From a virus: a DNA stretch of 22,410 bases. The stretch is taken from positions 1 to 22,410 of the IMG/VR virus record IMGVR_UViG_3300020183_002271. One strand, written 5' to 3'. Below are positions 9,293-20,782 of the stretch, piece after piece (within the stretch, counting starts at the first letter, position 1; each line of letters begins with the position of its first letter). The notes under the pieces were generated by a model. The model was not told the origin of the DNA, did no database searches, and saw only the letters and a list, made by a program, of their open reading frames with translations. Both the position numbers and the translations under genes were made by a program.

Positions 9293-9892
9293 ATGACAAC
9301 TAGACTTCAAGCTATCAACCAAATGTTGAGTGGCATCGGGCAGGCTCCAGTGGTCAGCCTTGATGTTGCCAACCCAGAACTTGCGTTGGCCCTGGACATT
9401 CTTGAATCCGTCAACCGCGAGGTTCAGGGTGAAGGCTGGCATTTTAATACTGAGATTAATTATCCGTTTACCCCGGATGTCAATGGACAGATTCTTGTGC
9501 CTCAAGATGTTCTGTCAATTTCAGACAACAAAATTTCCAACGTTCAGAAGTACCAGACCGTACTTCGCAACGGTAAACTTTACGACAAGATCAATCATAC
9601 CTACACCTTTCCCACTGGATCTCCTATCAAGTGTGATGTAGTGTGGCTCTTTGATTTTGAAGACATTCCACAGCCCTTTAAGGACTACATTACCCAACGA
9701 GCAGGACGTGTCTTTGCTGGACGTGCCCTTGGGTCTACCGAAATGGTTAACTTTAACGCCCAAGACGAAGGCATCCTGCGTGCCAACTGTCTGGCCTACG
9801 ATACCAACACCTCTGAGGTTAACATCTTTGGGTTGGAAACTGGTCAGAATTTCTACGTGTCCTATACCCCGTTCCGTACCATTGCTCGCTGA
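9293..9892 (+). CDS. Tail tubular protein A, T7 gp11-like
   Basis: A 199-residue gatekeeper/adaptor ring protein between portal and nozzle; T7 gp11 has 196 residues. Family marks are the N-terminal LQAINQMLSGIGQAPV and the segment LDILESVNREVQGEGWHFNTE, then the C-terminal half with RAGRVFAGRALGSTEMV. An SD AAAGGA (9282-9287) lies 5 bases before ATG 9293 and is one of the clearest in the window, but it can be hidden in a hairpin. The TGA stop overlaps the next ATG by one base (TGATG), so tail tube B is probably translated by reinitiation. Confidence 0.94.
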   Translation: MTTRLQAINQMLSGIGQAPVVSLDVANPELALALDILESVNREVQGEGWHFNTEINYPFTPDVNGQILVPQDVLSISDNKISNVQKYQTVLRNGKLYDKINHTYTFPTGSPIKCDVVWLFDFEDIPQPFKDYITQRAGRVFAGRALGSTEMVNFNAQDEGILRANCLAYDTNTSEVNIFGLETGQNFYVSYTPFRTIAR

Positions 9893-12834
9893 TGGCCGCT
9901 ATTTCTCAGAAAATCCCTAGCCTTGTTGGTGGGGTCTCACAGCAGCCGGATTCTCTGAAGCTGCCTAATCAGCTGCGTGAGTGCATCAATTACTATCCAG
10001 ACCCCACCTTTGGTCTTGCCAAACGGCCAGGACTTAAAGTGATTAGCAAACTTAATAACAGTCTTGCTGATGGTGTATGGTTTACGGCTTTTCGTGATGA
10101 TGAAGAGCGATACATTATTGAATTTGCAAAGAATGGTACGTTAAGGATTTGGGATGCGGAAAGTGGAGTACAGCAAACTGTTAATACTCCAGCAGCTTCT
10201 GCAACCACCTACGCAACTCATACCAATCCGTATGATTTGTCTGTGCTTCAAATTAACGATTACATCTTTGTTCTCAATAGAACAGTAACCGTTAAGGAAC
10301 AGACTTCCACCTCGGCTGCCATTACACCTTACGGCTACGTCCTTATCAATGCTGTTGGTTATAATACAACCTACAGTGTTACGCTCAATACGACCACCTA
10401 CAGCTACAACACTCCTGCCACCTCAGCAACTGCCCTAAATCTTAATGACATTACGGGTGGACTGGTCACGGCTATCAATGGTGGTGGTGTCTGGACAGCT
10501 ACAGCCGTAGGTAACTCGGTACATATTATCAAGAACGATAATGCTGACTTTAGCATTAAAGCTTCTGGCGGTACGGCAGGTAATGCAATTGAAGCCTACA
10601 AAGGTACTGTCAGTTCTATTGCTGAACTTCCTCGGCAGTTTCTTGACGGTAAAGTAATTCAAATCTTAGCCGCTGCTGATTCTAGTGGTGATGATTATTA
10701 CGTTAAATTTAAAACCAGTGATGGCGGTTCCAGCGGTGCTGGTGTTTGGGAAGAAACAGTAGGTCCTGGCGTACCAGAGGGCCTTGATGCTGCCACAATG
10801 CCTCACGCGATTATTCGTGAAGCCAATGGAACTTTCACCTATCGTCAATTGGGTGAAGCCGAAGCGAGTGCGATTACCCCAACGGCAAACGTAACCGGTG
10901 TTCCCACTTCAGTATCCATTACGACATCCGATAAGGGGCGCTACTCGGTTGGCCAAAGCTTTCCTGTTTATGGAGGCACAGGCCTTAACTTGCGTTTGCG
11001 AGTTACTGCGGTGCGTACTGACAATGTAATTACTAACTACACGTACAGTGGAGCATCCGTTAATTACATTGAAAAGAGTATTTATCCGGATAACTCCGTG
11101 GTGGTTACTTGGTATCTCAATAATGTGGTTCAACGAATCACATCAAATGACGATCCAATCACCATCAATAACTTGACAGTCTCCCTGTTTGGTTCCTATA
11201 CTCCGGTAGCAACCGCACCAGGAGCTGTGGTGACACAACGGGCTGGCGTCACAACAGATGCGGAATATCCTGGCCGTATTGATGGTATTCAGATTAGCCG
11301 CTCTGGACGTGGGTACACAGCCACAAACGTGGTTACCAGCGAACAAGGTGACACCTTTACGATTAATACTGTAGCAACAGTTACCCAACAGATTGATGCT
11401 TGGGCTGATAACTGGTGGCAAGATCGTAAGGTTGGGACGTTAGATACTAATCCACCTCCTACCTTTGTAAGCCGTAAGATTACTGGCATGTCGTTCTTTA
11501 AGAACAGGCTAGTATTGATGGCCGGGGAAAACGTCATCTGCTCACAGGCTGGCAGTTACTTTGATTTCTATGCGTCAACAGTCATAGCTTCTATTGATAG
11601 TGATCCTATTGATATTAGTTGTGGTTCGCTTAAACCAATTGAGATTCGTTATGCCATTCAAATGCCCCGTGGCTTGGCTTTGTTTGCTGATAACGCTCAG
11701 TACGTTTTAGAAACCACAACGGATGCTTTCTCCGCAGCCACGGCTGAAATTAATTTGCTTGGAGCTTACAATCAAGATCCTAAGATTCAACCCGTTGATG
11801 TGGGTGATTCTATTATCTTTACTGAGCAAAGCGATACAGCCACTGGAGTCTTTGAATTATTGATTCCCGAGCAAGGACTCGGCAAACCTCGTGTTGCTGA
11901 GCTTACTCGAATCATTCCTTCGTACTTACCTTCTGACATATTGGAGTTGAAGGCATCGTCCTCGGCTTCAACCTTTGTTTTGCGTAGTGCCCGTGATCTA
12001 AAGACGCTCTATTTCTTTAGGTTTTTTAATAGTGGCAACGATAGACAGATGGCTTCATGGTTTAAGTGGATCGCTCCTGGCGAAGTGGATGTTATCGATT
12101 TTGACCATGATAGGTTGTTTATCGTTTATACTACCGACTCTGGATCAAAGATTCTTACGCACGTAAACCTCCTTACCGACAGCCCTGGTGGCGCTTTATT
12201 CTTTGAGGATCGTTTTGTAGATCTTCGGTTGGATTGTTTTACTTATAACCCCACTTTGGTCTATGACTCTGGTACTGATACGACTAGGGTTTGCTTTAAA
12301 GAGGGAACCGAGGATGGACTGCTTCAACCATGTTTGGTCAGTTTAGATCCACTTGAACCAGGCGTAGTTCAATACCTCACACAGGAGTTTGACAATACAG
12401 CTCTAGCAGGTCAAAAGTACTACGTTGAAATTGATGGAGATCAAACCTCTAAACCGTTTGGTCTGGGCTATCAATACATTGCGTCTGCTACACTGCCTGC
12501 GTTCTATGTGTTTCAACGAGAGGACCGTAAGGATACTCTTAATATTCCCAGAGTCAATCGGATGTCTATTGACAGCTATGAGTCTGGTCCTTTTGAAGTG
12601 ACCGTTAAGGCACAGGGTAGGAACGCTTATACATCGGTTGTATCTCAAACCCCCGCCAACTCCTATCCAGCCAATACCCTGCCAATGCTTAGGAATGCTC
12701 AAAACAAGATTCCGGTTATGGCCAAAGGAACCGAAGTTGAGATAGACTTGTTGGCATCCACTCCATTTCCTTCTTCCCTTACCTCAATCACCTGGGAAGG
12801 CACCTACAACAACAAAGGAATCCGCTCACTATGA
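9892..12834 (+). CDS. Tail tubular protein B (nozzle), T7 gp12-like
   Basis: A 980-residue nozzle protein, longer than the 794 of T7 gp12. The N-terminus SQKIPSLVGGVSQQPDSLKL, then NQLRECINYYPDPTFGLAKR, is the diagnostic gp12 opening. Later parts include MSFFKNRLVLMAGENVICSQ with a following YFDFY, and SWFKWIAPGEVDVIDFDHDR, matching the T7 propeller region. The extra length is probably in the Thr/Asn/Ser-rich beta region around residues 130-500, consistent with additional surface domains. No SD is seen; the ATG overlaps the tail tube A stop. The end overlaps the next gene as ATGA. Confidence 0.95.
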   Translation: MAAISQKIPSLVGGVSQQPDSLKLPNQLRECINYYPDPTFGLAKRPGLKVISKLNNSLADGVWFTAFRDDEERYIIEFAKNGTLRIWDAESGVQQTVNTPAASATTYATHTNPYDLSVLQINDYIFVLNRTVTVKEQTSTSAAITPYGYVLINAVGYNTTYSVTLNTTTYSYNTPATSATALNLNDITGGLVTAINGGGVWTATAVGNSVHIIKNDNADFSIKASGGTAGNAIEAYKGTVSSIAELPRQFLDGKVIQILAAADSSGDDYYVKFKTSDGGSSGAGVWEETVGPGVPEGLDAATMPHAIIREANGTFTYRQLGEAEASAITPTANVTGVPTSVSITTSDKGRYSVGQSFPVYGGTGLNLRLRVTAVRTDNVITNYTYSGASVNYIEKSIYPDNSVVVTWYLNNVVQRITSNDDPITINNLTVSLFGSYTPVATAPGAVVTQRAGVTTDAEYPGRIDGIQISRSGRGYTATNVVTSEQGDTFTINTVATVTQQIDAWADNWWQDRKVGTLDTNPPPTFVSRKITGMSFFKNRLVLMAGENVICSQAGSYFDFYASTVIASIDSDPIDISCGSLKPIEIRYAIQMPRGLALFADNAQYVLETTTDAFSAATAEINLLGAYNQDPKIQPVDVGDSIIFTEQSDTATGVFELLIPEQGLGKPRVAELTRIIPSYLPSDILELKASSSASTFVLRSARDLKTLYFFRFFNSGNDRQMASWFKWIAPGEVDVIDFDHDRLFIVYTTDSGSKILTHVNLLTDSPGGALFFEDRFVDLRLDCFTYNPTLVYDSGTDTTRVCFKEGTEDGLLQPCLVSLDPLEPGVVQYLTQEFDNTALAGQKYYVEIDGDQTSKPFGLGYQYIASATLPAFYVFQREDRKDTLNIPRVNRMSIDSYESGPFEVTVKAQGRNAYTSVVSQTPANSYPANTLPMLRNAQNKIPVMAKGTEVEIDLLASTPFPSSLTSITWEGTYNNKGIRSL

Positions 12835-13301
12835 ATCCTCTGATCCGCCCAGCAACAATTGATGATGCCCTTGAGGTGGCACAGCATTTACAAGAAGCGG
12901 ATCGGCAAGAAGTGTTAGGGACGGGTCATGATCCAATCGTGGCCCTTCCTTATTCCATCGCTGTATCAGAGGCCCCTGTGACATTTGTCAGTCCTGAGGG
13001 CCAAGTGGCTGGCGTTGCTGGGGTATCCAGAACAGATGCCCTTAGCGGTGGTATTTGGCTTCTCACCACTGATGTTGTTAAGCAATATCCAAAGCTCTTT
13101 TTAAAAGGAGCCAAGGAATGGGTTGCTAAACAAAATCATTTTGAGATGCTTCATAACATCGCTGATCCACGCAACACCTCTCACCTTAAACTTCTCAAGA
13201 TTCTTGGTTTCAAGAGATTGGGATATGTGTCTGTTGGACCTAACAGGCTGACCTACGTTGAGTTTGCAAAACTAACATCATGTGCTTACCCGCAGCAGTA
13301 A
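12831..13301 (+). CDS. gp13-like protein with a GNAT-like fold
   Basis: A 156-residue protein in the T7 gene 13 position. The N-terminus LIRPATIDDALEVAQHL and the C-terminal NTSHLKLLKILGFKRL followed by YVEFAK have the layout of a GNAT acetyltransferase; T7 gp13 has the matching NTSHIRFLKTIGAVF. The acetyl-CoA pyrophosphate loop (R/Q-x-x-G-x-G/A) is not visible at the expected place (TTDVVKQYPKLFLKGAKEWV), so catalysis is doubtful and an assembly role, as for T7 gp13, is more likely. The start overlaps tail tube B (ATGA) and the end overlaps the gp14-like gene by 22 bases. Confidence 0.78.
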   Translation: MNPLIRPATIDDALEVAQHLQEADRQEVLGTGHDPIVALPYSIAVSEAPVTFVSPEGQVAGVAGVSRTDALSGGIWLLTTDVVKQYPKLFLKGAKEWVAKQNHFEMLHNIADPRNTSHLKLLKILGFKRLGYVSVGPNRLTYVEFAKLTSCAYPQQ

Positions 13302-14068
13302 TCGGGGTTATCACAGCAGTCACCTCGGTCGTAGGTTCGATTGCTGCGTATTCCCAACAACAACAAGAAGTTGCCTATCGTAATTCCGTTGCTCAGGCTC
13401 AGTATCAAAATCAACTGATTGCCTATGATCGGTCGATTAAGGCAACCCAAGAACAGTATCGATTAAATACCGAAGCAGCTAACCGAGGATACATTTCGGA
13501 ACAGAACAAGCTTCGTGCTGAATATCAGAAGTTTACGCAAGAGCAACAACAGCTTTTGGTGTCATCTCTTCAAACCCAAGGAACCGTACTATCGTCTGGT
13601 AGGGCTGGTCAATCCATTGGTCTACTTGCGGCTGATGCTGAAAGACAGTATGGTAGAGACCTAGCGACACTAGGTTTGAACCTTGCCTATTCTCAACAAG
13701 ACTTCTTTACTGCGACTGAGGGAATCTATAATCAAGCTCAGAGCGCCAACAATGCGGCAGCAGCCAACCAAATGCTTGAACCTATGGCTCCGATAATGGA
13801 ACAGGGTCCAAGTGCGTTAGGGTTGGTGTCTGGTATTGCTGGTGGAGTGATGGGCGGCTATAGTGCGTATCAAGGCCTACGAGCGCCATCGGCTGGAGGA
13901 GGAGGAGGAAGTTCACCCTATTCTCCAACGCCAATTCCTGGAGGCAGTTGGTCAGGAAGTTCTTCATTCAATCCATCACCATCTTTCCCGTCATCTACGC
14001 CTCGAATTAGTGGTACTATGGAATATCCGTCTTTCTCTCCGCTTCCTGCGGCTTCCCGTGTGAGGTAA
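13280..14068 (+). CDS. Internal virion protein, T7 gp14-like
   Basis: A 262-residue ejection protein. As in T7 gp14 it starts MC and then has a hydrophobic segment (residues 4-24, AAVIGVITAVTSVVGSIAAY). A long Gln-rich helical region follows (about 25-160), with GRAGQSIGLLAADAERQYGR and YSQQDFF. A second hydrophobic Gly-rich stretch (ALGLVSGIAGGVMGGYSAY, about 180-198) precedes a Ser/Pro/Gly-rich disordered tail. T7 gp14 is ejected first and forms a pore in the outer membrane; the same role is inferred. The tail is rich in GGA and TCN codons and is probably fast-evolving. The last codons include a GAGGTAA SD for the next gene. Confidence 0.85.
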   Translation: MCLPAAVIGVITAVTSVVGSIAAYSQQQQEVAYRNSVAQAQYQNQLIAYDRSIKATQEQYRLNTEAANRGYISEQNKLRAEYQKFTQEQQQLLVSSLQTQGTVLSSGRAGQSIGLLAADAERQYGRDLATLGLNLAYSQQDFFTATEGIYNQAQSANNAAAANQMLEPMAPIMEQGPSALGLVSGIAGGVMGGYSAYQGLRAPSAGGGGGSSPYSPTPIPGGSWSGSSSFNPSPSFPSSTPRISGTMEYPSFSPLPAASRVR

Positions 14069-14071
14069 TCA

Positions 14072-16690
14072 ATGGCCCGAATTTATGAATCACGCGGACC
14101 GCAGGTTGCTCTTCAAGGACCACGGGAAAGTGCTGGATTTCAACCGGTTCAAGCGTTTGACCCGTCTCGTCAGATTCTCAATCAAGCAGATCGTCAGCTG
14201 GCTCAGGCAGCACAGGTGGGCGAAAACATGTTGCGTAATTCTGCGAGGGACCTAGAAGCGTTAACGCAATTTTCTGACACTCTTAATAAATTTCTGTTTG
14301 ATCAAGCAGAACGAAAAAATAAGCAAGACCTTGAGCTAGGTATTGCAGAAGTTCTAAATGGTGATCGTGTTGTCAAACCCGATACCTTTCAACAATTTAG
14401 GCAAGCCGAACAGGTTCTTGGAACCAAAGCACTGGCAGATGCGTCTCTCAGTGATTCGGTAGCTCAAATCTCTCCAGCTATTGGAGAACAGGCTCGTGCT
14501 GATAGTCCCGCTATTAGTGGGTGGAGGGCCTATGGGCAGGCCATTGGTCGGGCTAAAAAAGCAGCCTCCGTAAGTCAGATGATGATGTCTGAATTTATGG
14601 AAAGCGATCAACCAGTGGTGCCAATTCCCAATCCAGATGGCACAGCCCGTCTGATGGCCCCAAGGGATGCTAGAAGTCCTGCTGAAATCATGGCCGCATT
14701 TTCGGTTGGTCAGCAGCTCTTTATCCAAGAGTCTGGATTGTCTGGTATCAATCCTGTTATTATTGCTGAACATCTTACTCCAACAATGCTTGGGGTTAAG
14801 CAAGGCATTGTCAGTAATAAGATTGCGGCTGCCCGTAAGGCGATGCAACAGGAGGAGATTGAACAGATTCAGGAATTTATTGGTTCTGAGGTTCTTACCC
14901 TGGATCCTAATGATCCTAATTTGATTCAAACGTTCTGGCAAAGCACTACCCGTGATCTTCAAATCAATGGTAGGATGAGCAGGGCTGAAGCCAATACTAC
15001 TGTTGTTGAATCGTTTATTGAGCACGCCAAGGCCCTTGGTCGGACGGATCTGCTGGAGGCTCTTGCTAACACTCCGCTCATTGCCGACCAACCAAATGGT
15101 CCCCGCGTCGGTGATCGCTTCCGTCCGCAATTCGAAGCCGCAGCCCGTGGGGTGGAGCAGTACAATGATTACATAGAAGGTAAAAAGGAGAAGGAACAGG
15201 ATGATATGGTGGACGATCTGCTATCCGCCCATACCCTGCTTCTTACCCAACCTGGCGTTAGTCCCTCACAAATTCAAACCAGTTGGGCTAGTACAACCAG
15301 TGAATTGCGGAAGCTTGCCGGTGCTGGCAGTAGAAAAGCGGCTAATGAGCTATTGGCAATGGAGCAAGAGGGTGAATCCTATAACCCCCTGCTTGCGTCT
15401 GATTTGGCCCGTGATATTGCCGCTGGTCGTTATCCATCTCCAGAAAGTATTGACGAATTAGTACGACTAAGGCGCATAAAACCCGCCGAAGGTGCGGATC
15501 TTAAAAATCGTATTCCTAGTTCTGCTGCTATTGCTAAAACTAAAGCTCTGGAACCGGAAATCAAAAAAGCGGTTCAAGGTGTTTTTAACAATGCCCTTAT
15601 AGAGCAAGGTGTAAGTTCTGCTGATGTTCAAGTTACAGCTTCTGGCACAGCATTTGTTCAAGGACAGATGGCTGATGAACTATCGGAACTGGCTCAAACC
15701 TATATTGAACAAAATCCTCAGGCATCTCCTGCGGAGGTTCGTGACTTTTTGCGGACCAGAGCCTCTGCTCTTATCCAGCAGCCACGCTTTCGTCCTATGG
15801 TGGAAGGTGGTGCAGTAAGATTTAAGCAGTCGCTTTCCAACAACCCAAAAGTCCAGAAGTTCCTTAACCCCGTCACCGGGCGTTCCACAAGAGACTTCAG
15901 TACCGCCACTCCTGCTCAAGTACAGTCTTCACGGCCTGTATCGAAAACGGATTGGCTGATCAGCTCTCAAGAACTTGCTCAAAACACTCAGAACTATCTG
16001 AATGGACAGCAACCCACTCCAAGGGTCAAGGCACTCATGACTGCCACCGGAAAGAGTTGGGACGCGTTCTTGAGGGACCAATCTCAAGCATATGGTATTC
16101 CCTTTACGCAACTATCCCAGTCCCAAGCGGCTCAGGCTGCTCAACAGCGTCGGGCTCTTGCCCCTGCTGCTGCTGCCATCCTGGTCAACCCAAACGCTAC
16201 TGCGACCCAACGCATTAGAGCCTGGAATGACATTACCGCAGCCCGCCAACGTCAAGCCCGCCAAACCAGCGGGAAAAACGATGGCCCCGCTCCTGGATCA
16301 GTTCCTGGTGGCGCTTTGGGGCCTGAACAGTTGGTTGACCTTGCCCTTCAATCAGGCTTTAGTCCTGAGTTAGCTCCAATCATGGCAGCAATTGCTATGG
16401 CTGAGTCGGGCGGTCGTACCAACGCTCATAATCCAAACCGCAGCACAGGTGACAATTCCTATGGCCTTTGGCAGATCAATATGATTGATAACCTTGGTCA
16501 GGAACGTCGCAGGCAGTTCGGTCTAAAACGTGATGAGGATCTTTGGGATCCAGCCACAAACGTTCGAGCAGCAAAACAGGTCCACGCATCGCAAGGACTT
16601 GGAGCTTGGACAGTTTATAAAACTGGCGCCTATCGTCAGTATCTACCGGAAACTAAGAGGGCGCTTGCCAATCTTCGTCGTTCCCGGTAA
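14072..16690 (+). CDS. Internal virion protein (gp15-like) with C-terminal lytic transglycosylase domain
   Basis: An 872-residue core/ejection protein in the T7 gene 15 position. Most of it is helical and Gln/Ala-rich with no recognisable catalytic motif. The last 120 or so residues form an SLT/lysozyme-like domain: LALQSGFSPELAPIMAAIAM, then AESGG with the probable catalytic Glu778 (codon 16403-16405), NPNRSTGDNSYGLWQINM, and a closing AAKQVHASQGLGAWTVYKTG. It would cut peptidoglycan during DNA ejection. In T7 this activity sits at the N-terminus of gp16; here the gp16-like protein shows no such motif. GAGGTAA (14062-14068) lies 3 bases before ATG 14072. The fold assignment is secure for the domain; gp15 homology is mainly positional. 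Confidence 0.86.
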   Translation: MARIYESRGPQVALQGPRESAGFQPVQAFDPSRQILNQADRQLAQAAQVGENMLRNSARDLEALTQFSDTLNKFLFDQAERKNKQDLELGIAEVLNGDRVVKPDTFQQFRQAEQVLGTKALADASLSDSVAQISPAIGEQARADSPAISGWRAYGQAIGRAKKAASVSQMMMSEFMESDQPVVPIPNPDGTARLMAPRDARSPAEIMAAFSVGQQLFIQESGLSGINPVIIAEHLTPTMLGVKQGIVSNKIAAARKAMQQEEIEQIQEFIGSEVLTLDPNDPNLIQTFWQSTTRDLQINGRMSRAEANTTVVESFIEHAKALGRTDLLEALANTPLIADQPNGPRVGDRFRPQFEAAARGVEQYNDYIEGKKEKEQDDMVDDLLSAHTLLLTQPGVSPSQIQTSWASTTSELRKLAGAGSRKAANELLAMEQEGESYNPLLASDLARDIAAGRYPSPESIDELVRLRRIKPAEGADLKNRIPSSAAIAKTKALEPEIKKAVQGVFNNALIEQGVSSADVQVTASGTAFVQGQMADELSELAQTYIEQNPQASPAEVRDFLRTRASALIQQPRFRPMVEGGAVRFKQSLSNNPKVQKFLNPVTGRSTRDFSTATPAQVQSSRPVSKTDWLISSQELAQNTQNYLNGQQPTPRVKALMTATGKSWDAFLRDQSQAYGIPFTQLSQSQAAQAAQQRRALAPAAAAILVNPNATATQRIRAWNDITAARQRQARQTSGKNDGPAPGSVPGGALGPEQLVDLALQSGFSPELAPIMAAIAMAESGGRTNAHNPNRSTGDNSYGLWQINMIDNLGQERRRQFGLKRDEDLWDPATNVRAAKQVHASQGLGAWTVYKTGAYRQYLPETKRALANLRRSR

Positions 16691-16719
16691 CAGCAAGAAA
16701 ACCAACTGTGGGAGGTTCG

Positions 16720-16815
16720 ATGCGTCGGGCCTCTTTTCTTGTATCCATCAACCCTTATCCCTGCGGGGACCACATCGACAACAATGACAACAAGTTGGAG
16801 AGAGTTTGGCAGTAG
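16720..16815 (+). CDS. Possible 31-residue leader ORF overlapping the gp16-like start
   Basis: ATG 16720 is preceded by GGGAGG (16710-16715) at a spacing of 4, one of the best SDs in the window. It encodes a 31-residue peptide beginning MRRASFLVSINPYPCGDHID and ending in LERVWQ before TAG 16813. It runs through the 93-base gap and overlaps the preferred gp16-like start (ATG 16784) by 32 bases in a different frame. The gp16-like start has no SD of its own, so translational coupling is possible. No homologue is recognised and it may be chance. Confidence 0.35.
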   Translation: MRRASFLVSINPYPCGDHIDNNDNKLERVWQ

Positions 16816-19800
16816 CCAGCGTCAGGGGGTCGAGGATCCTCTTGAAAGAAATAAAAAAGATGAAGAGGAACGTAGACGGCAGCAAGCGGAACAACAACGC
16901 AGGCAAGCCGAGGAGCTTAAGAAAAAGCAACAAGAAGAAGCTGCTCGTACACGGAACCCTCTAGCCTCAATTCAAGAAGCACTAGGTCAGGATGCTGCCC
17001 GTCCTCTTCTTCAAGGAATTGATAGAACGTTTGGCACCAACCTAGATCAGATTCGAGAACAAAACATTGAACGTGCTGGTGGCCGTGAAGCCATCAAGCA
17101 ACGCCAACAACAGGTTACAGAAGGATTTCAGCGGGAAGCTGATAAAGGAGCTAACATCGTTGGTTCTGAAGCCATCCGTGCTGTTGTTCGTACTCCTGTC
17201 AATCTTCTTGAAGGGGTTCTCAATACTGGTGAGCTGATCAAAGATACTGTTTCGGCTCCATTCCAAAAAGATCCAAAGAAGAATCCATTTGATCGTAGGT
17301 ATGTTCAAGCAGCCTATGACTTTAAGGTTGAGGGTCCTAAGACTCCAGTAGGTAAACTTGCTGAAGGATTGCTGACGTTTGGCGTTGGCATGAAACTAGC
17401 AGCTAGTCGGCTTCCCAAGGGTGCCGTTGGCCTTGGAACAGGTGGAAAGGGACTCAAGGGGGCGATTGCTTCCGGTATTGTCCCTGGTGCTCTGGCCGAT
17501 TTTATGCTGGCAAAGCCTGGCGATGGCAATCTGAGTAACCTTGTTCAGGATCTAGTTCCAGAGGAATATCGGGACACCTTCTTGTTTGCTCTGGCTACCG
17601 ATAAGGATGATGACCCCTGGACAGCGCGTCTAAAGACCGTTCTGGAGGGTGCTGGTACTGGTGCTGCTGTTGATACCCTCATCTATCTTAAGTGGGGTAG
17701 GAACGCCACACAGAGGGCTCTCAAGGCCGGTAAATCACAGGCTCAGGCCGTTTCCGAAGGCCTTAAAGCTGCGGATGCCAAACGGGTAGAACTGGAAAAA
17801 GCTCTTCCCAAAAAGATTGAACAGGAAGGTATTCGTTGGTCTGATGCCCAGCAAAAGGAAACCGAACGGCTTCTGGAACGGGAAAACTTCTTAATCAATG
17901 AAGAAGCAAATCTTCGTAATGCTGGTCTGGATGATTCAGATCCAAATCTTCAACGAGTAATCCAAGAGCTGGAAGAAGTTCGCCTTAACCAGTCGCAACT
18001 GGATTCCGAGATTGTTCGGGGTTATGATCCAGAAGATATTACCTTGGCTCCACAGGAACGCTCTGCCACTGTGGATACCACTGATGTTAACCGTGTTGTT
18101 GCTCAACAATTGGAGTTAGAACGTGGACCCATTCCAGATTCTGCGAGAGTTCCTGATGTTCCTTCAACATTTAGGACTAATCAGGCTGCTCTTGGTGGTT
18201 CTGATCATATACTTACTGATGCTGCTTATCGCATCCTGAATCTGGATGATGAGGTGGAGAACTTTGTTCGTCAAACCACCCGTCGTACTGATCTTCAGAC
18301 CCTGGCTAAAAGTCTCGGTAGATCCACAGATAGCATCGTCGCAGATGCTGCTAGGATCGTTCAGGAGGTGCGTGACGCCAGCCGTCAATGGAATGACCCT
18401 ACCGATAACATTGCGGACCTTCTGAAGCGTTCAGGGGCCATGATGGAGGTGCGTGGTGCTACCGATGGAACCTCCGGGGACATCCTTACTCGTGAGGGTG
18501 TTGTAGCTCTTAAGGCTCTGATTACTGATACCAGCAATCAAATCTTCGACCTTGCCTTAAACGCTGATAAAGCCCTTGAGGCTCGCATGGTTGGAGGTAA
18601 TCAATTTGATCGGATGGTTGATCGGCTTGTGACAATGCTCGGTCTCCATAAACAAGCTGCTGTGTTCCACGGTGGTGGTCTTCAGGCCTTTGGTCTTGAC
18701 CTTATGGGTGGTATCCACGTTCGTGGTGATGCTGCCGATGACAGTGTTGAACTAACCATGCGTCAAGCTCGTGAGTGGGCTGCCAAGGTTAAGGAACTTA
18801 AGCGTATTGGCGATCCAGAAGCTCAAGATCAACTGGAGAAACTGGTAAGGGCTATGGCTCTTGCTGGTGGTAATCCTACAAAAGCAGTCAACTTCACCTA
18901 CATTGCAGCCAAGCTCGGTGTAGATGAATTGATGAATGGAATGTATAACTCCATTCTTTCTGGACCCATCACGCATCTTCGTAACGTCATTGGTAACAGT
19001 TACGCACTTCTTGAGCGTCCTACGTCCATCATGTTGAGAGGTTTTCTCAATAATGATGAAACGCTGCGCCGTTCGGCGGTGGCGGGGTATCATGGCATTG
19101 TGAGTAGTGTTCAAGAAGCGTGGCGGGTTGGTTGGACCTCCATGAAAACTGGAGATTCCGTTAATCTAAATGCCAAGTTTGTTATCGAAGATGCTCAAGC
19201 CCTTGCTGGTATTGAGCGCCTTAAGATGGCAGCTAAACCTGGTAGCAACGAAGAACGTGCTGCGGGTTTTGTGGAAGCCCTCTATCGGTTTACCCACAAC
19301 CCTATTATTAGTCTGCCCAGTCGCATGATGATTGGTGCTGATGACTTCTTCAAAACCTTGACTGCTCGTCAGAAGGTTCAGACAGATGCCATGTATAAGG
19401 CGATGTCTGAAGCCCAAAGCGCCGATGATGTTGATGGATTGTTCCAATCCTACATGAAGGAATTTAGCAAGAAGATTGATCCGACAACGGGTCGCATTCT
19501 TGATCCAACTCTTCTTGAGTATGCTGAGCGTGCCACCTTTCAGCAAGATCCTGGTTCACAGGTTAATGCTATGGCCAATTTTCTCAATAGCATTCCATAC
19601 GGTATTGGACGCATCTTTGTCCCGTTTGTCCGTACTCCGGCTAACATTCTCGCTTATGCTGGACAACACACACCAGGTCTTGCTCGATTCCTCACTCAAT
19701 TTAAAGAGGCCGAGCGTGTCGGTGATGAACTTTTACTAGCAGAACTTAAGGGTCGAGAAGCTATTGGGTCAATGACCGTGGCTATTGCCGGTATGGCAGC

Positions 19801-20782
19801 AATGAATGGATTGATCACGGGCAACGGTCCTGTAGATCCGCAAGAACGCACAATCTGGCTCCAAACCCATCGTCCTATGTCCATTAAAATTGGTGATGCT
19901 TGGGTGTCATATCAGCCAATTGAACCGTTAAGTACTCTTATGGCAACCATTGCTGACATTGCAATGCTGGCTAATATGGGCGCTGCTGATGCGGCTGAAC
20001 GTCTTGCTGGTCAAACTGGCTATGCCATAGCTGCTGCTGTTACGGAAAAGAGTTACCTTGCTGGTCTGGCCAGTATTGCTGAAATTCTTGACCCACAAAA
20101 TATGACGGCAGACGGTGCGGCGCGAGGGCTACTTAGTACTGTCAATAATTTCTTCCCATATGCTGGTGCTAGGCGTGGTCTTGCCAACGCTCTGGATCCA
20201 TATATAAAGGAAGTTGACGGAGAACTTAAGCGTGCTCTTAATGCTGCCCTTCCTGGATACAAACTGCTTGGCCCTACAAAGGTCGATTTCCTTACGGGAA
20301 AGGATGTTGAGTCTTCCGCTGGTGGTCTTTACAATGCCATTAGTCCGATCCGTTATGCAAAAATGGGCGAAGACCCTGTAAAGGATATGCTGGTTAACAT
20401 CAACTACGAACTCAAGGATGTGGTTAAGACCGGTCCTATGGGGGTTGAGTTGACCGGTGAGCAACGGAGAATCCTATCGCAGGAGATGTATCGTAATGGC
20501 GTCCGACAACGTTTGGAACGCCTTATCAAGCAGGACTGGTTTAAGGAGGATGTGGCTAACTGGAAAGCCCGTGGTCTTAATTTCTCCACAGAAGATAACC
20601 GCCCCCGCCATTATCAAGCTGTTCAGCGGATTATCACTCAATCCAAAGAGTCCGCATTCCGCACAATGCAAGCCAAAGATCCTGGATTTGCCGAGATGGT
20701 CCGTAAAGCTCGCCAAGAGCAGGTCAAGTCGCGGCGAGGCATTTACACCGAAGTTAATGATTTGACCAATTACCCTAACTGA
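16784..20782 (+). CDS. Giant internal virion/ejection protein, T7 gp16-like
   Basis: 1332 residues from ATG 16784, similar to the 1318 of T7 gp16. The start MTTSWREFGSS is followed by a charged coiled coil (about 20-60, runs of E, R, Q and K) and long helical regions. Hydrophobic stretches include KLAEGLLTFGVGMKLAASRL, GLKGAIASGIVPGALADFML and MTVAIAGMAAMNGLITG (997-1013), consistent with a protein that crosses or lines the cell envelope during ejection. No transglycosylase Glu motif is seen at the N-terminus, unlike T7. In-frame TTG 16739 would add 15 residues but has no SD. ATG 16784 also lacks one and may depend on the short upstream ORF. Assignment is by position, size and composition. 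Confidence 0.85.
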   Translation: MTTSWREFGSSQRQGVEDPLERNKKDEEERRRQQAEQQRRQAEELKKKQQEEAARTRNPLASIQEALGQDAARPLLQGIDRTFGTNLDQIREQNIERAGGREAIKQRQQQVTEGFQREADKGANIVGSEAIRAVVRTPVNLLEGVLNTGELIKDTVSAPFQKDPKKNPFDRRYVQAAYDFKVEGPKTPVGKLAEGLLTFGVGMKLAASRLPKGAVGLGTGGKGLKGAIASGIVPGALADFMLAKPGDGNLSNLVQDLVPEEYRDTFLFALATDKDDDPWTARLKTVLEGAGTGAAVDTLIYLKWGRNATQRALKAGKSQAQAVSEGLKAADAKRVELEKALPKKIEQEGIRWSDAQQKETERLLERENFLINEEANLRNAGLDDSDPNLQRVIQELEEVRLNQSQLDSEIVRGYDPEDITLAPQERSATVDTTDVNRVVAQQLELERGPIPDSARVPDVPSTFRTNQAALGGSDHILTDAAYRILNLDDEVENFVRQTTRRTDLQTLAKSLGRSTDSIVADAARIVQEVRDASRQWNDPTDNIADLLKRSGAMMEVRGATDGTSGDILTREGVVALKALITDTSNQIFDLALNADKALEARMVGGNQFDRMVDRLVTMLGLHKQAAVFHGGGLQAFGLDLMGGIHVRGDAADDSVELTMRQAREWAAKVKELKRIGDPEAQDQLEKLVRAMALAGGNPTKAVNFTYIAAKLGVDELMNGMYNSILSGPITHLRNVIGNSYALLERPTSIMLRGFLNNDETLRRSAVAGYHGIVSSVQEAWRVGWTSMKTGDSVNLNAKFVIEDAQALAGIERLKMAAKPGSNEERAAGFVEALYRFTHNPIISLPSRMMIGADDFFKTLTARQKVQTDAMYKAMSEAQSADDVDGLFQSYMKEFSKKIDPTTGRILDPTLLEYAERATFQQDPGSQVNAMANFLNSIPYGIGRIFVPFVRTPANILAYAGQHTPGLARFLTQFKEAERVGDELLLAELKGREAIGSMTVAIAGMAAMNGLITGNGPVDPQERTIWLQTHRPMSIKIGDAWVSYQPIEPLSTLMATIADIAMLANMGAADAAERLAGQTGYAIAAAVTEKSYLAGLASIAEILDPQNMTADGAARGLLSTVNNFFPYAGARRGLANALDPYIKEVDGELKRALNAALPGYKLLGPTKVDFLTGKDVESSAGGLYNAISPIRYAKMGEDPVKDMLVNINYELKDVVKTGPMGVELTGEQRRILSQEMYRNGVRQRLERLIKQDWFKEDVANWKARGLNFSTEDNRPRHYQAVQRIITQSKESAFRTMQAKDPGFAEMVRKARQEQVKSRRGIYTEVNDLTNYPN

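Follow-up and report, generated by a model that had tools for sequence, protein, structure and literature searches.

A predicted lysozyme-fold SLT_3 module at the C-terminus of the gp15-like protein of a T7-like phage and the different modules found there in its relatives

In phage T7 the peptidoglycan-cutting domain of the virion lies on the internal protein gp16 (residues 15–127; PF01464, E 2e-31). The T7-like phage analysed here, IMG/VR record IMGVR_UViG_3300020183_002271 (22,410 bases; hereafter the window), carries its putative cutting domain on the protein encoded one gene earlier, in the position of gp15. This raises the question of whether the domain has migrated between the two genes or has replaced another within gp15. 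We regard it as probable that the window encodes a gp15 counterpart to which a lysozyme-fold cutter is joined by a linker, that modules are exchanged by recombination in a fixed socket formed by the C-terminal part of gp15, and that the cutter would be delivered together with the tunnel. Coordinates are collected in Table 1; contigs and records compared with the window carry L numbers.

A sequence-only reading of this DNA had placed an SLT-type domain with Glu778 at the extreme C-terminus of the gp15-like product, and the profile searches agree. Pfam matches PF18896 (SLT_3) to residues 757–847 with E 2.7e-15 and 57 bits (cut-off 27), a profile match that is far beyond chance, and PF01464 (SLT) to residues 770–835 above its cut-off (E 7.2e-6). 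PF18896 is found once only in the 22,410-base record. Residue 778 is a glutamate, invariant among the aligned relatives, and the motif ES...GLWQI is present in 32/32 SLT_3-bearing gp15 entries, some contigs being counted more than once. The AlphaFold model of residues 747–869 aligns with lysozyme structures with Z 9.9 and a root-mean-square deviation (r.m.s.d.) of 3.2 over 109 residues. The catalytic-type glutamate lies at the end of helix 768–778, as in the lysozyme fold. The loop that directly follows (781–807) is of low confidence, with a predicted local distance difference test score (pLDDT) below 50 at 781–798 and 802–807.

The residues around the predicted active site bear on its chemistry. 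In c-type lysozyme the Asp that precedes YG is the second catalytic residue. The c-type lysozyme family PF00062 scores 16.8 bits, below its cut-off of 27; in a phmmer alignment to Musca lysozyme this Asp pairs with Ser796 of the window. Because of this pairing the evidence leans towards, but does not settle, the single-Glu chemistry of a transglycosylase.

The module is shared beyond the window. The same fusion of gp15 and SLT_3 occurs in three other contigs (L009, L024 and L025, 76–82% identity), and in the close relatives L009 and L024 the module itself is 83–89% identical. It is also 50–68% identical to modules in viral proteins of other layouts (e.g. of 1124 and 239 amino acids). SLT_3 was found at four loci of cellular genomes, the best being a Cyanobium metagenome-assembled genome (65% identity); no donor is named. 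In that contig (L351, 1067–4348) a 1094-residue protein has an M15-like stretch, recognized by eye, followed by SLT_3. No gp15 or gp16 profile match was seen beside it among the plus-strand open reading frames (ORFs) of the fetched stretch. It is possibly the ejection protein of another phage.

The protein that bears the module was compared with gp15 in several ways. Its gene lies between gp14-like and gp16-like genes, and the ORF matches the virion structural protein family PHROG 19560 (E 4e-22). By BLASTP, residues 1–691 align with residues 1–689 of Syn5 gp15 (E 3e-17) despite different modules, as do the gp15 bodies of S-CBP3 and S-CBP1 (E 1e-40), whose modules also differ. The predicted body aligns with the gp15 structure 7eyb_A (Z 9.3, r.m.s.d. 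17.2 over 334 residues) and with 9jyy_G of the T7 core (Z 9.5, r.m.s.d. 4.7 over 249 residues), Z values below about 13 being common among helical proteins. The match ranks first in Foldseek, with probability 0.97 but E 0.04, and the likeness is suggestive. Body and module are joined by RQTSGKNDGPAPGSVPGGA (residues 730–748), throughout which pLDDT is below 50.

The gp16-like ORF matches the internal virion protein family PHROG 6651 (E 2e-172). Its closest annotated phages are the Synechococcus phages S-TIP28, S-CBP42, P60 and Syn5 (29–32% identity), and SS120-1 is also among the closest cultured relatives by gp16. The sequence-only reading saw no peptidoglycan-cutting domain in this protein, and we concur: Pfam finds no hydrolase in the whole protein at E<=1, no SLT protein is among the PDB sequence matches, and an N-terminal SLT of the kind in T7 gp16 was not detected. 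The AlphaFold model of residues 1–420 (mean pLDDT 47.8) is too poor for use, so this absence rests on sequence profiles. A hidden SLT domain in gp16 was considered and rejected, since the searches of the whole protein and of the 420 N-terminal residues of 110 relatives gave nothing.

The sequence-only reading had gone further and supposed that the domain left gp16 when its boundary shifted over the intergenic gap. The contrast with T7 stands, in that gp15 rather than gp16 bears the cutting domain; the proposed movement is not supported. In favour of a handover, the two positions are neighbours in gene order and both domains match PF01464 to some degree. Yet the window domain gives no BLASTP alignment with residues 1–160 of T7 gp16 even at E<=100, the best Pfam models differ (SLT_3 for the window, SLT for T7), and the window gp16 has no visible remnant and a start that is conserved in close relatives. 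Relatives of the T7 domain occur in 1063 of 50,697 phage records, and the ten commonest of their 39 organism names include no cyanophage. The comparison across cyanopodoviruses that had been proposed found modules at the gp15 C-terminus of relatives; among 110 gp16 N-termini (first 420 residues) 0 match a hydrolase family at E<=0.01, and unrelated families occupy the same gp15 position. We therefore consider a boundary shift very improbable. As judged from these sequences, the pattern is replacement within gp15 and not migration from gp16, because the closest cultured relatives by gp16 have a different lysozyme-type domain at the same gp15 position.

What those relatives carry was surveyed in a census of 340 loci and records (11 repeats had been removed in advance; contigs among the rest still recur). 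A gp16 was present in 270, and 190 gave a gp15, the 80 dropped having gp16 cut at the contig end (51), no upstream ORF of 350 amino acids (18) or gp15 cut (11). Clustering yielded 110 non-redundant representatives and merges the repeats, which counts on the 190, such as 32/32, retain. The queries that supplied the loci favour gp16 of the cyanophage type; the window, L003, L004, L056 and L061 entered through gp15 or SLT_3 queries. For S-CBP3 and S-CBP2 the genes were chosen by hand; their gp16 is split, and the C-terminal gene was scanned in the N-terminus census and the upstream pieces separately. Labels were set by hand for L004, L105, L109, L313, L320 and L231. In the last 330 residues of the 110 gp15 proteins, Pfam (E<=0.01) finds SLT in 20, SLT_3 in 15 (overlapping with the former), M23 in 15, glucosaminidase in 11, Phage_lysozyme2 in seven, and DPBB_1, M15_3 and Hydrolase_2 in one each; one protein can count under several families. 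The window SLT_3 thus appears, by profile, to be one of several module types at this place, eight Pfam families in all, not all of them certainly active.

With local profiles and hand corrections, a module is recognized in 67 of the 110 tails: EGG lysozyme-like (19, tentative), SLT_3 (15), glucosaminidase (11), Phage_lysozyme2 (10), canonical SLT (five), M23-like only (five), DPBB (one) and Hydrolase_2 (one). Tandem arrangements occur, as SLT_3 with an M23-like domain in L196, to which a local profile adds L205, L208 and L236, and as SLT_3 with M15 in L198. The EGG module of L244, which may resemble lambda endolysin, owes the name lysozyme-like to a tblastn search with matches in 107 phage records; among 12 that are listed, two are annotated as lysozyme-like domain protein, one as amidase, two as structural protein and the rest as hypothetical. 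EGG labels beyond L244 come from an iterated local profile. Antibody chains were among the listed matches of a PDB search with the L244 module and were taken as chance; a PDB search with L209 returned none.

On a gp16 tree, the module labels require at least 20 changes, compared with a mean of 61.7 (range 55–66) in 200 label shuffles; 12 of the changes are among recognized glycosidase types. The tree is a quick one in which long branches are possibly misplaced. Without six long-branch rows there are 18 changes, 11 of them among glycosidase types (before one label correction); cruder labels give 21, or 16 if rows without a module are left out.

Related genomes point to exchange at the DNA level. 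In five pairs (L244/L251, L231/L232, L241/L251, L326/L313 and L198/L236) BLASTN matches of 75–92% identity run through gp15 and gp16. The sole break longer than 60 nucleotides (nt) in gp15 and the aligned gp16, of 322–520 nt, is non-homologous and falls in the C-terminal part of gp15; the L198/L236 comparison extends to the end of L236. In L244/L251 the last 28 gp15 codons are kept and the preceding segment is unrelated, and in L326/L313 the non-matching stretch is likewise followed by a conserved gp15 end. The SLT module of L251 is flanked by two near-copies (14/16) of a 16-nt stretch coding LPTN; L262 has one LPTN-coding stretch, with a DPBB domain after it, and DPBB occurs in contigs from two samples (L241 and L262). 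Out of 726 pairs whose gp16 identity is 80% or more, the swap criterion picks 40, 28 of which involve the single contig L313 and five L115, where the tails differ without a hydrolase match. Three of the five pairs (L244/L251, L241/L251 and L313/L326) are among the 40, and L231/L232 and L198/L236 were chosen from the tree, outside them. Between the window and L194, gp16 is 70% identical and the gp15 body 48–72% identical (50-column windows) up to residue 750, after which identity falls to 24%. This drop is not just fast evolution, because the same domain is 83–89% identical in L009 and L024. The L194 tail has a weak SLT match with canonical SLT motifs and an M23-like domain, and the alignment indicates the same exchange pattern as in the five pairs on a longer time scale.

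Cultured phages show a comparable variety. Phage_lysozyme2 is over its cut-off at the gp15 C-terminus of S-CBP2 (E 1.8e-9) and below it in the tails of P60 (4e-5), Syn5 (0.013) and S-CBP42 (0.43); by tblastn (E 3e-31 to 9e-11) the P60 tail has homologues in those of S-TIP28, S-CBP42, Syn5 and SS120-1. These Syn5/P60-type cyanopodoviruses have a gp16 homologous to that of the window, and Syn5, S-TIP28 and S-CBP42 also share its gp15 body by BLASTP; their module, however, is of Phage_lysozyme2 type where the window has SLT_3. Other gp15 C-terminal parts match glucosaminidase (DSL-LC07, 7.5e-17; S-CBP1, 3e-11), Hydrolase_2 (S-SBP1, 1.8e-7) or SLT_3 (P-SCSP1i, 1e-13; S-CBP3, 5e-13). The conserved last 130 residues of P60/S-CBP1-type gp15 were considered as a possible M23 domain, and the profile comparison with the M23-like set failed (probability 0.2). 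Pfam finds no hydrolase in the gp15 tails of P-SSP7, S-TIP37, NATL1A-7, P-GSP1, CRP-114, HTVC119P, ProddE and phiKMV; the phiKMV tail matches T4 lysozyme (E 2e-11) and that of S-TIP37 the EGG profile. In the P-SCSP1 Prochlorococcus phages (17 records), SLT_3 of P-SCSP1i stands at the extreme C-terminus of the gp15-position protein and is 49.6% identical to the window domain, whereas the bodies give no BLASTP match at E<=1e-3; the protein is annotated as hypothetical. The accessible text of PMC9860041 reports that no annotation was possible for proteins of P-SCSP1a suspected to be internal. Should the gp15-position gene be among them, the SLT_3 match may add to what is annotated there.

A hydrolase on gp15 is already known in a handful of phages. 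In the parts of PMC5380687, PMC8954989 and PMC11440229 available to us, a lysozyme is placed on gp15 in SP6, K1-5/K1E, phiKMV and PhiM1. Like the window, SP6 (gp36), K1E and K1-5 are described there as having a lysozyme on the gp15-like protein; the SP6 module is Phage_lysozyme PF00959 (7e-10 in our search) and that of the window SLT_3. The gp15-position protein of Pseudomonas phage phiKMV (gp36) is described with a C-terminal lysozyme-type domain (PMC5380687), which resembles T4 lysozyme and not SLT_3. That of Pectobacterium phage PhiM1 is the OEP, taken as the gp15 counterpart, with such a domain at Gly718–Ser903; the PhiM1 gp16 counterpart has an inserted endolysin-like domain, and none is seen in window gp16 (accessible text of PMC11440229). 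We found no description of recurrent exchange of module families at the gp15 C-terminus in the open-access literature, to which our search was largely confined, subscription journals lying mostly outside it.

How might such a domain work? In the T7 model, as set out in the part of PMC8954989 available to us, gp15 forms the periplasmic tunnel and residues 1–156 of gp16, with the transglycosylase, form wings on it; the T7 virion transglycosylase travels with the ejection proteins, as the window module would. By analogy, the gp15 counterpart would be stored in the virion core and ejected on infection, building a tunnel across the periplasm. A single-Glu, transglycosylase-like domain tethered to its C-terminus through the flexible linker would be ejected with it and open the peptidoglycan locally, giving passage to the tunnel and gp16; it would thus take the job that T7 gives to the gp16 N-terminus. 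According to the available text of PMC11440229, the PhiM1 gp16 counterpart (TEP) is a tetrameric ejection protein and the ejectosome interface is locally 8-fold. Fusion to gp15 rather than gp16 would provide more cutters per virion and deliver them ahead of gp16. In this lineage, recombination would exchange the module in the C-terminal part of gp15. We put forward more tentatively, as a possibility that we rate somewhat less likely than not, that the gp15 C-terminus of this T7-like group is a dedicated exchange site like the receptor-binding tips of tail fibres. Unrelated modules (glycosidases, transglycosylases and peptidase-like domains, singly or in tandem) would be swapped by recombination while the body and gp16 stay constant, fitting entry to host peptidoglycan chemistry or lysozyme inhibitors.

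The exchange could be real and the modules mainly peptidoglycan-binding or structural components of the virion rather than wall cutters in entry. The zinc-ligand motif of M23 comprises a first His and an HxH; in the M23-like domains Gln replaces the first His and the second His of HxH is missing (14/14), and we read them from their sequences as probably pseudo-peptidases, perhaps wall-binding. The ES motif is lost from the Phage_lysozyme2-type domains of L256, L257, L265 and L267; six others keep it. With such residues missing, at least some modules cannot be active enzymes. (The gp16 genes beside these four modules encode 1842–1984 amino acids compared with 1332 in the window.) The tails of P-SSP7-type gp15 (L020, L114, L115, L132, L139 and L148) carry at their ends W-rich repeats (GDW...VWNG..W), one to three in number, a count that varies between close relatives, with no hydrolase match. 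ES and GLWQI are, however, retained throughout the SLT_3 entries, the four canonical SLT modules inspected keep ES and GQVMP, and one Glu is invariant in the glucosaminidase modules (11/11). Because these active-site-type residues are conserved, we argue for catalysis in these three classes and consider it unlikely that the modules are mainly binding or structural. It is less likely still, and in our view barely credible, that chance or misassembly joined the lysis endolysin of the phage to a structural gene. The single PF18896 match would suit that explanation, and in a 22.4-kb record that is possibly a fragment a separate endolysin gene might for that reason not be seen; but the fusion recurs in L009, L024 and L025, and in P60, S-CBP1, S-CBP2 and DSL-LC07 a lysozyme gene is annotated separately besides the gp15 module.

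Several observations weigh against the socket interpretation itself. As modelled, the body resembles T7 gp15 to a moderate degree. As many as 43 of the 110 tails, mostly of the P-SSP7 group, have no recognized module, so the socket is either not always filled or holds something unseen. The M23-like domains lack their zinc ligands and four of 10 Phage_lysozyme2-type domains lack ES. Swaps seen in metagenome contigs could include assembly chimeras; L244, L251, L232 and L198 are each alone in their own cluster, and L313 and L320 are from one sample. Hydrolases also occur in or next to gp16: in T7 itself; in S-CBP2, where a separate 1051-residue gene between gp15 and a short gp16 (L105, 4618–7770) encodes an M23 peptidase domain (E 3.5e-8); within the PhiM1 gp16 counterpart (endolysin-like, accessible text of PMC11440229); and in JG068 gp39, for which the available part of PMC3765740 gives an SLT70 match.

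The remainder of the window is in keeping with a T7-like phage. Family matches include DNA polymerase A, 5'-3' exonuclease, MazG-like, ribonucleotide reductase, portal, capsid-assembly and T7-type tail-fibre proteins, the major head protein, tail proteins and gp13/gp14-like proteins. Both GNAT-like matches of the gp13-like protein are below cut-off (PF13302, 0.003; PF11090, 0.009). Tail tubular protein B (9892–12834) has 980 residues; its Phage_nozzle match is split in two stretches, which suggests an insertion relative to the 794 residues of T7. The gp16 reading frame opens with TTG at 16739, and the start conserved in close relatives is the ATG 45 nt downstream, at 16784, which makes the gp15–gp16 gap 93 nt. 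Terminator-like sites as a class (17 found, 12.6 expected) are not clearly above chance. The motif TTATCCCTGCGGGGA (16755–16769) also lies directly ahead of gp16 in L005, L006, L008, L012 and L013, differing there by one change at most, and was not found before gp16 of L007; the window holds a single copy of its 12-base core. It is perhaps a conserved translation or promoter element.

Table 1. Features of the gp15 region of the window and related gp15 C-termini
Feature	Position	Strand	Basis
gp13-like small protein	12831..13301	+	PHROG 308, E 4e-33; weak GNAT-like match
gp14-like internal virion protein	13280..14068	+	PF24072 T7_gp14, E 6e-14
gp15-like internal virion (tunnel) protein, 872 aa	14072..16690	+	ORF; between gp14-like and gp16-like genes; PHROG 19560
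Gly/Pro-rich low-confidence linker, residues 730–746, joining body and module	16259..16309	+	Sequence, pLDDT
SLT_3 lysozyme-like module, residues 747–869	16310..16678	+	Pfam; lysozyme fold, Z 9.9
Codon of catalytic-type Glu778 (GAG)	16403..16405	+	Invariant, 14/14
93-nt gap with terminator-like hairpin and motif TTATCCCTGCGGGGA	16691..16783	+	Hairpin 16710–16735
gp16-like internal virion protein, 1332 aa from conserved ATG	16784..20782	+	PHROG 6651
14 M23-like gp15 C-termini	L194, L007, L196, L205, L208, L209, L233, L236, L252, L227, L231, L240, L242, L248

What is added here to the known cases is that, in this cyanopodovirus-like group, the wall cutter, when found, lies in the C-terminal part of gp15 and that one module type frequently gives way to another, in some cases among genomes that are close relatives. 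Hypothetical gp15-position proteins of cultured cyanophages, such as those of S-CBP1, S-CBP3, S-SBP1 and P-SCSP1i, gain an annotation. Natural pairs of genomes whose gp15 and gp16 differ strongly at a single place, the wall-cutting module, offer a direct test of the role of the domain in entry. If the interpretation is true, the cell wall would be a second exchange point of host adaptation, beside the receptor.

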